In this document: positions 2 through 2,295 of the stretch, piece after piece | Layout: each line of letters starts with the position of its first letter | Position numbering within the stretch: position 1 is the stretch's first letter | From: an uncultured Paracoccaceae bacterium | Lineage (GTDB): Bacteria; Pseudomonadota; Alphaproteobacteria; Rhodobacterales; Rhodobacteraceae | Length of the DNA stretch: 64,000 nucleotides | Assembly (NCBI GenBank): GCA_947497985.1 | Contig: CANMIX010000006.1 | Location: 62,001 to 126,000, forward strand | Direction of reading: 5' to 3' | Made by a program: the position numbers and the translations under genes | Notes under the pieces: model-generated | The model's input: only the letters and a program-made list of their open reading frames with translations | The model's database searches: none | Told to the model about the DNA's origin: nothing

Positions 2-1060
2 TTGATTCGAGATGCGCTGAATCGCTTACCCTACCCGGGTGAGGGAACGTTGATTTCCAACGACATCGTGCGTGCGCTACGTGTCGAGGGCGGTCAGGTC
101 TCTATGGTGCTTGAGGCGCCAAATGCGGCTGTTGCGGCACAGATGGAGCCTTTGCGTCGCGCGGCCGAAGCTGCGGTTCTTGCGGTTGAGGGGGTCGTGG
201 CGGTTTCTGTTGTGTTGACGGCGCATCAATCCAGTGCTCCGGCGCCTGCGCCAAAGGGCGGGTTAAAGGTCGGCGGGCATATGTCACCGCAGTCAGGGCA
301 GATGCGCCCATCGGGTGTGGACCGCATTCTTGCTATTGGGTCAGGCAAGGGGGGCGTCGGTAAATCCACCGTCAGCGCAAACCTTGCAGTGGCATTGGCC
401 CGGCAGGGGCGGCGGGTTGGATTGCTGGATGCTGATATCTATGGGCCGAGCCAGCCGCGGATGATGGGTGTGTCTAAACGCCCTGCGAGCCCGGATGGAA
501 CGACCATCGAGCCGCTACAGGCGCATGGCGTAACGGTGATGTCGCTTGGTTTGATGGTTGAGGAGAAAGAGGCGATCATTTGGCGCGGGCCAATGCTGAT
601 GGGGGCCTTGCAGCAGTTGATGACCCAGGTGAACTGGGGTGAGTTGGACGTTCTGCTGGTGGATTTGCCTCCTGGCACTGGCGATGTGCAGCTGACTCTA
701 TGCAGCAAGTCCGAACCCACCGGAGCGATCGTCGTGAGCACGCCGCAGGATGTGGCGTTGCTGGATGCGCGCAAGGCGTTGGATATGTTTTCCAAGCTTA
801 AGACGCCCGTGCTGGGGCTGATCGAGAATATGTCCTTCTTTACTTGTCCTGACTGTGGTGGTGAGCACCACATCTTTGGTCACGGCGGTGTTGCCTCCGA
901 AGCCGAAGAATTGGGTATCCCGCTATTGGGCGCGTTGCCCATTGATCTGGAGACCCGTCTGGCCGGAGACGCAGGTCGCCCCGTTGCGCTTGGCGATGGC
1001 GCGATGGCTGACGCTTATATGAAAATGGCTCGGGGTTTGGTTCAGGGTGGCATGGCCTAA
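2..1060 (+). CDS. Mrp/ApbC/NBP35-family iron-sulfur carrier P-loop ATPase (5' end probably truncated by window)
   Basis: ORF with [21 protein letters not shown] Walker [15 protein letters not shown], and CPDCGG motif typical of Mrp/ApbC. Confidence 0.93.
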
Positions 1061-1086: not shown

Positions 1087-1370
1087 TGGGCTGAAATGGG
1101 ACGCGCTGGTGAATTTGGGAATTTACGGCACTTTTGGGAAAGCATGGGAACCCGTCGCACAGTAGTGGGGCGGGTTCTTTCTATTGCCTGCTGGGAAAAA
1201 ATGGGCGGCATGGGAAAGCCTGGGATTTTCGGATAATTCGATTAAACGAATCACCCGTTCCGGCCTGGTTGGGTGGTTTTGGGCCGAAAATCAGGAACCT
1301 TTAGTGAACATGTGTTTCGCTGACCTGCTTCAGAATCCAGTCTTGGGAATTTATGGGAAAATTTTGGGCT
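1087..1370 (+). promoter_or_regulatory. Array of phased TGGG(A) direct repeats, putative MraZ-binding boxes
   Basis: TGGG at 1087,1097,1116,1135,1145,1166,1192,1202,1211,1221,1270,1280,1344,1354,1365; many spacings 9-11 bp; no CCCA in the same interval; located upstream of mraZ. Confidence 0.65.
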
Positions 1371-1509
1371 GCTTCGTGTTGGTCTATATGTAGTGAATTA
1401 TTTCAAATTCCCTACTATATTAGCTGAAATGTGACCGAATTGGGGCATCCAGCTTGATTGCTCTGTCGAGAGATGAGCCTCTGATGGGGGCTTGTTCTGA
1501 AAATAACAG

Positions 1510-1536
1510 TTGTCAGCCCATTAATTCCCATAGTAT
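1510..1536 (+). promoter_or_regulatory. Candidate promoter for the mraZ leader (TTGTCA-N15-TAGTAT)
   Basis: -35-like TTGTCA at 1510 and -10-like TAGTAT at 1531; short spacer, so tentative. Confidence 0.3.
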
Positions 1537-1544
1537 CCCTATCT

Positions 1545-1754
1545 ACATCGAGAGACGGAGAGCTGGGGCAACGAACGACCCCGACCAAAACTAAAAATAG
1601 CAGGTTTCATACAGGCCTTCGCTTTTTCGAAAAAAGAGAGATCCGGCGCGCGGGCGAGCAGACATCCCCCCAGGTGGCGCGCGCAGTCGGACACCCGCTC
1701 AGCGGGACGTGGAGGCGGGTTGATCAGTGGCAGCAGATCAACCCGCCCCTTTTC
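1545..1754 (+). ncRNA. Candidate UpsM-like sRNA / extended dcw 5' leader ending in an intrinsic terminator
   Basis: ~210-nt non-coding GC-rich leader ending at a perfect 12-bp hairpin plus CCTTTT, directly upstream of mraZ, matching the layout of UpsM in R. sphaeroides; 5' end is an estimate. Confidence 0.5.
1714..1753 (+). terminator. Intrinsic terminator/attenuator in mraZ leader
   Basis: GGCGGGTTGATC (1714-1725) / GATCAACCCGCC (1736-1747), 10-nt loop, followed by CCTTTT. Confidence 0.7.
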
Positions 1755-1803: not shown

Positions 1804-2295
1804 TTGGGTCGCAGGTTCAGAGGCGAAGGCCACCATAAGGTGGACACGAAGGGGCGGGTCTCAATTCCGGCTTCCTTTCGCCGTGTGCTTGAGGCTTCAG
1901 ACCCCAATTGGCAGCCCGGCGGCAATCCTGAACTGGTTATTGTGTACGGCGACCAGCGTCGTAAATTCTTAGAAGTCTATACGATCGACGCCATCAACGA
2001 GGTGGACGACAAGATCGACGCCTTGCCGCGCGGCTCAATGCAGCGCAAGATGTTACAGCGCATGTTCCACGGCCAATCTTTCCCGACCAATGTGGATGAG
2101 ACGGGCCGCTTGGTCCTGCCTGCAAAGCTGCGCAACAAGATCGAGCTGGATAAAGAGGCGTTCTTTATTGCGGCGGGTGATACGTTCCAGATTTGGAACC
2201 CTGAGACTTATGACGCTGAAGAGCTGGCTCAGGAAGAAAAGTGGATGGAAGAGCTGCCCGAAAATTTTGATCCGATGGAGTTTCTTGATGGCTAA
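1804..2295 (+). CDS. mraZ: Transcriptional regulator MraZ
   Basis: RRFRGEGHHKVDTKGRVSIPASFRRVLE N-terminal MraZ motif; TTG start at 1804 with AAGGAG at 1791; next to rsmH. Confidence 0.93.
   Translation: MGRRFRGEGHHKVDTKGRVSIPASFRRVLEASDPNWQPGGNPELVIVYGDQRRKFLEVYTIDAINEVDDKIDALPRGSMQRKMLQRMFHGQSFPTNVDETGRLVLPAKLRNKIELDKEAFFIAAGDTFQIWNPETYDAEELAQEEKWMEELPENFDPMEFLDG

Follow-up and report, generated by a model that had tools for sequence, protein, structure and literature searches.

MraZ, which forms large rings, ranks with the most conserved regulators of bacteria; its known operators consist of three or four boxes at the promoter. The question raised here is why a far longer series of TGGG boxes precedes mraZ in an uncultured Paracoccaceae bacterium, and what these boxes could do at such a distance from the gene. 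The stretch of DNA analysed (64,000 nucleotides of contig CANMIX010000006.1) is referred to below as the window. The array begins 27 bp past the stop codon of an ApbC/Mrp-type gene, which is the upstream neighbour in many relatives as well, and spans 717 to ~435 bp upstream of mraZ; the first-pass annotation of this DNA had put its reach at ~700 bp. Downstream of mraZ lie rsmH and then the remaining dcw cluster. The distance from the Mrp gene to mraZ is ~1.5 kb in seven of the sampled loci (L064, L075, L100, L105, L118, L124, and L125) vs the usual ~0.7 kb. The mraZ locus of L054, a record titled Nocardioides marinus, is Leisingera-like, and the record is probably mislabelled. The features of the region are listed in Table 1.

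Table 1. Features of the mraZ upstream region and its flanking genes (positions within the window)
Feature	Positions	Strand	Details
ApbC/Mrp-type Fe-S carrier ATPase gene	2-1060	+	Upstream neighbour, runs past window start; NF008669 292 bits, below the cut-off of 348
Distal array, 12 TGGG boxes	1087-1283	+	Sub-clusters 1087/1097/1116, 1135/1145/1166, 1192/1202/1211/1221, 1270/1280
GAATC, GANTC methylation-type site	1247-1251		Sites in this band conserved in most genera
LexA-like GAAC-N7-GAAC	1295-1309		8/66 genera including the window, ~-218 to -232
GAATC/GATTC-type site	1331-1335		Between distal and proximal arrays
Proximal cluster, TGGG at 1344, 1354, 1365	1344-1368	+	183, 173, and 162 bp upstream of core CCCA (1527)
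NrdR-box-like palindrome GGTCTATATGTAGTGA	1381-1396		No further box of the series discernible here
Core promoter of UpsM leader and dcw cluster	1510-1539	+	-35 TTGTCA 1510-1515, 18-bp spacer, -10 TATCCC 1534-1539
Core operator, inverted putative MraZ boxes	1517-1540	-	CCCA at 1517 and 1527, degenerate CCCT at 1537
UpsM-type leader, start inferred	1546-1753	+	Conserved leader; intrinsic terminator 1714-1753
mraZ, first gene of the dcw cluster	1804-2295	+	TTG start; NF001476 222 bits, cut-off 162

Between positions 1087 and 1370 the plus strand carries 15 TGGG tetramers, and no CCCA was found there, exactly as the first-pass annotation had listed them. Seven of the boxes are TGGGAA, the number claimed as a minimum, and two further ones are TGGGA, which makes nine TGGGA. 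The array stretch (287 bp) was compared with 5000 dinucleotide-preserving shuffles, in which TGGG occurred 5.6 times on average and 12 times at most. The many 9-11 bp spacings noted earlier were also confirmed: eight box pairs are this far apart, against a shuffle mean of 0.3 and a maximum of 3. The excess is local to the array, since the window as a whole shows no TGGG enrichment (593 observed vs 675 expected). Three of the nine TGGGA-N5-TGGGA occurrences in the 4.19 Mb genome are inside the array; other stretches of the genome with three TGGG are mostly inside long open frames. A small protein encoded in the array appears unlikely, as open frames there are short and a 10-bp period shifts the frame.

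The mraZ loci of relatives were drawn from four sets: the genus (17 genomes), the family (197 of 199 genomes), 80 named genomes (close relatives among these are Tritonibacter and Epibacterium), and the class (133 of 154 genomes). The region is only 48-72% identical in close relatives; few alignment columns are invariant there, and the box pairs belong to them. Box pairing was counted with one locus per genus in 68 genera of the family, using the stretch from -800 to -400 before mraZ. There were 88 pairs at exactly 10 bp but only 8 pairs at 9 bp and 12 at 11 bp; the 108 pairs at 9-11 bp compare with 8.2 +- 3.2 in shuffles. Further peaks of pair distance were observed near 19-22 and 29-32 bp, and control words put through the same analysis across the 68 genera gave no signal of the 10-bp type. 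Chance and base composition are ruled out as the cause of the array by the shuffles together with this cross-genus pairing. The earlier reading had been made to depend on the repeats being conserved where mraZ is, and the boxes are indeed kept family-wide together with the gene. The array was also said to be unusually large, and it ranks first among 160 related loci (15 boxes vs a median of 7); arrays of very large size are limited to some genera. Among 20 genera that are more divergent, 17 have the core promoter described below, 7 have upstream boxes paired at 10 bp, and 8 have TGGG in a proximal slot. As many of these divergent genera have no paired upstream boxes, the array is not required throughout the family; the same counts indicate that the remote array is mainly a feature of Roseobacter-like members of the family and becomes sparser elsewhere. 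In other alphaproteobacterial families, upstream pairs on the opposite strand were detected in 9 of 41 genomes, some of them expected by chance, with 10 upstream pairs at exactly 10 bp vs 1 at 9 bp; a few other families may also possess remote boxes. We conclude that the array is a genuine regulatory element, both conserved and structured.

The array does not lie beside the mraZ promoter; the conserved promoter is found ~140 bp downstream of the last box. A scan with the sigma-70 consensus gave no promoter, and this one was recognised by conservation: the family alignment gives the consensus TTGATTTCCATGAATTCCCATGGCATCCCT in 160 of 163 loci. The transcription start predicted from it (~1546) agrees with the start mapped in R. 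sphaeroides, 268 nt before mraZ, where transcription produces the UpsM sRNA, ends in part at a leaky terminator, and proceeds from the sole mraZ promoter found there (PMC5089854). The window shares with R. sphaeroides the promoter position, a predicted long mraZ leader, its intrinsic terminator, and a lone promoter ahead of the leader. Conservation of the UpsM-type leader is high across the family, and the leader has a predicted fold of -87.1 kcal/mol (z -2.45); no Rfam family matched the leader or the region. The R. sphaeroides study, whose text was searched for TGGG, repeats, and MraZ binding, differs in making no mention of MraZ boxes upstream (PMC5089854).

The core promoter itself bears inverted boxes across its -35 and -10 elements. 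At the corresponding place, 36 of 41 genomes from other alphaproteobacterial families carry CCCA boxes spaced by 10 bp, two to five in number; an inverted set of this kind is therefore the standard core operator in the class. The 10-bp-spaced inverted CCCA of the window conform to this pattern, whereas most other families lack the upstream array on the opposite strand. Judged by position and strand, the array is a second, remote element, oriented oppositely to the core operator.

Distances of the boxes were measured from the core CCCA (1527 in the window) in 66 genera. Proximal boxes occupy slots 160-164, 170-174, and 180-184 bp upstream, sharply centred on 162, 172, and 182 bp, with almost none between the slots. 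These three slots (15 positions) hold 87 of the 149 TGGG located 101-260 bp upstream of the core box, compared with 21 +- 5, and at most 37 in 1000 trials, when anchors were shifted at random. At least one proximal slot is filled in 53 of the 66 genera. The distal array of the window lies ~250-440 bp from the core box; in the family, distal boxes were taken at 255-460 bp, where positions are less fixed. Distal paired boxes nevertheless share a helical register with that promoter (P 0.0016 at 10.5 bp, 0.0003 at 10.75 bp), as do all distal TGGG taken together (0 of 20000 rotations), although these values are optimistic because the genera are related by descent. No helical register was detected between distal boxes and the mraZ start codon. 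The two separated sets of sites thus have a conserved helical phase, as is expected of a looping pair. A constant distance, together with a register that persists across 160-440 bp, suggests that the proteins involved meet on the same side of the helix.

Several other conserved elements lie between the array and the core promoter. De novo analysis of conservation revealed a family palindrome, CACTATATATAGTG, at ~-146 from the core CCCA, between the proximal cluster and the core promoter. With a generic NrdR matrix based on the general consensus, NrdR-like boxes were found at -146, -115, -82, and -52 in 45, 13, 24, and 20 of the 66 genera, respectively, while most control bins held 0-1. The spacings within this series in relatives are 31, 33, and 30 bp; it has been shown that functional NrdR sites consist of two palindromic boxes ~31-32 bp apart (PMC2892513). 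The genome possesses nrdR, and one of its ribonucleotide reductase genes is preceded by an NrdR-like pair spaced by 31 bp. The assignment of the series to NrdR is no more than suggestive, because the general consensus was adjusted in part during the analysis; a matrix built from nrd loci was partly circular and noisy and was not used as proof. An inverted repeat, ATCTTGTTTT...AAAACAAGAT, located at ~-82 to -45 from the core CCCA in L030, L037, L025, and others, falls on the third and fourth boxes of the NrdR-like series. A genome-wide search for tandem palindromes yielded mostly unrelated matches with two mismatches. The only strong tandem match, an NrdR-like pair 31 bp apart (L206, 1497-1544), is near a response-regulator gene and not a reductase gene. 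We found no report of NrdR at the dcw cluster in the literature, of which few subscription papers were covered, so that an earlier description is possible. The palindrome series and other elements in the spacer may in part keep the spacer length and the sharp proximal distance, beside any MraZ bridge.

Sites of the GANTC methylation type are concentrated in the same region. In the band 235-335 bp before the core box, 57 of the 66 genera together have 100 GAWTC, vs 6 in a neighbouring band, and GACTC/GAGTC is not enriched between the distal and proximal arrays. Part of the GAATC/GATTC sites, as seen by eye, may belong to apbC terminator stems. The LexA-like site recurs at a common position in a minority of genera, and N6 and N8 spacer controls gave 0-1 in the same place. 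CtrA sites (TTAA-N7-TTAA) and DnaA boxes were rejected as candidates, being sparse and without a common position.

MraZ is the likely binder of the array, because the box logos agree with one another and with the E. coli operator. The logos of distal array, proximal cluster, and core operator all read TGGGA(A) with the next box ~10 bp on, and the wording TGGGAA-N4-TGGG is common to the three (the minus-strand logo of the core operator is ATGGGAATTCATGG). The mraZ operator taken from the genome sequence of E. coli MG1655, TGGGAAATTGTGGGGCAAAGTGGGA, has the wording and period of the window boxes, in agreement with the earlier claim of E. coli-like TGGGN repeats. As in known MraZ operators, direct repeats of TGGG type with a 10-bp period stand upstream of mraZ in genomes that encode MraZ. 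The array does not overlap or adjoin the promoter, however, since it ends ~140 bp upstream of the -35 element; only the inverted core boxes overlap the promoter. The array would therefore be a remote element working like, and probably with, an MraZ operator. The proposal of an extended operator accordingly holds for wording, conservation, and probably for MraZ as the binder, but not for anatomy: the operator proper is the separate inverted core set and the array is a remote module. A sequence search of solved structures returned the MraZ entries 1n0e/1n0f/1n0g, 9qlr, 9qlg, and 9sx6, which do not bear on the DNA analysed here.

Known systems resemble the region in part. The E. coli mraZ operator, reportedly the subject of a 2014 study by Eraso and colleagues, likewise has TGGGA/G boxes of 10-bp period before mraZ, but these are three plus-strand boxes between promoter and gene, whereas the window has 15 boxes located 160-440 bp upstream of a core promoter that itself bears inverted boxes. 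Long-range repression loops of the lac, gal, and ara systems are formed by a multimeric repressor on distant operators in helical phase. The phasing of distant sites is shared with the window, where looping is a proposal; in those systems there is one auxiliary operator, compared with tens of short boxes here. The Mollicute MraZ operator, AAAGTG[T/G] direct repeats (PMC8475190), is also a direct-repeat series in the mraZ promoter region but has other wording and few repeats and is confined to the promoter. No report of phasing in an MraZ array was found; few subscription papers were covered, and an earlier description is possible.

The sequences themselves show the boxes with their 10-bp spacing and conservation, a proximal cluster at a fixed distance, and the helical register. 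From these observations we infer with moderate confidence that MraZ regulates its own synthesis through the core operator and the remote, inverted, phased array, joined by a loop or wrap. MraZ would occupy the inverted boxes in the -35/-10 region and also the direct boxes of the opposite strand in the proximal cluster and distal array, and a multimeric form would bridge or wrap both sets. Bridging or wrapping appears most likely because the sets are 160-440 bp apart yet in helical phase. The shortness of the boxes speaks against this reading. As a result, repression of UpsM and dcw transcription would depend steeply on the MraZ level. It has been shown that MraZ represses the dcw cluster in M. 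genitalium and E. coli (PMC8475190) but activates it in Neisseria elongata (PMC9395523), so the sign of its effect here is not certain.

Other readings of the array have to be weighed against this one. The array could be a local reservoir or titration sink that sets the level of free MraZ without contacting the core promoter. The wide variation in box number among relatives (median 7, maximum 15) is what would be expected of a buffer, but a sink needs neither the fixed distance nor the helical register, and we regard it as rather unlikely. It is also conceivable, if quite unlikely, that the proximal cluster is an E. coli-like operator, with plus-strand boxes downstream, of a second promoter near 1230-1340 which is possibly controlled by GANTC methylation and reads through the leader. 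E. coli indeed has its boxes on the plus strand just before mraZ, GANTC sites are concentrated just upstream of the cluster, gcrA is present in the genome, and the published survey of start sites was confined to 300 nt before mraZ (PMC5089854). No conserved -35/-10 pair was seen near 1230-1340, however, and when R. sphaeroides transcripts were followed by 5' RACE from mraZ, 5 of 10 clones had the UpsM 5' end and the others random ends (PMC5089854); the register with the core promoter would also be left unexplained.

Little weight is given to a DNA-binding protein other than MraZ that reads TGGGA direct repeats. MraZ binding to the array is so far deduced from sequence, and ChIP signals of NtrX and CenR have been observed upstream of R. 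sphaeroides mraZ (PMC7240162, PMC9275681); against this, the boxes match the E. coli MraZ operator in wording and period, and the proposed NtrX site GCA-N9-TGC is not concentrated in the region in the 66 genera. Control of the promoter by G-quadruplexes of the G-rich strand is very improbable. One canonical motif is present at 1193-1224, and a precedent exists in the S. aureus mraZ promoter (PMC11796246), but a canonical motif (four G-tracts, loops 1-7) occurs in the region in only 14 of the 66 genera, and in the proximal cluster in 2. In addition, T precedes 188 of 236 box-paired GGG compared with 140 of 371 other GGG, and neither exact 10-bp spacing nor distant register is required by a quadruplex. 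Conservation and the preceding base together rule out quadruplexes as the general explanation.

Along with MraZ autoregulation by loop or wrap, a wider role of the region may tentatively be considered. It is possible, though on balance doubtful, that the dcw control region of Rhodobacteraceae is a long-range hub in which an MraZ bridge spans a 140-bp spacer with helically spaced NrdR boxes and receives inputs from GANTC methylation and, in some genera, from LexA and the SOS response. The NrdR-like series is a possible link of division genes to nucleotide supply. The remote array, conserved across the family and in register with the promoter, provides a natural substrate for testing MraZ rings, wrapping, and looping. 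The control region before the UpsM sRNA has hitherto been studied from the start site onward; it extends ~440 bp further upstream, and this upstream part may link division to nucleotide supply and the state of the chromosome. If the hub exists, MraZ level, nucleotide supply, replication, and DNA damage would together determine the setting of the division and wall genes of these bacteria.
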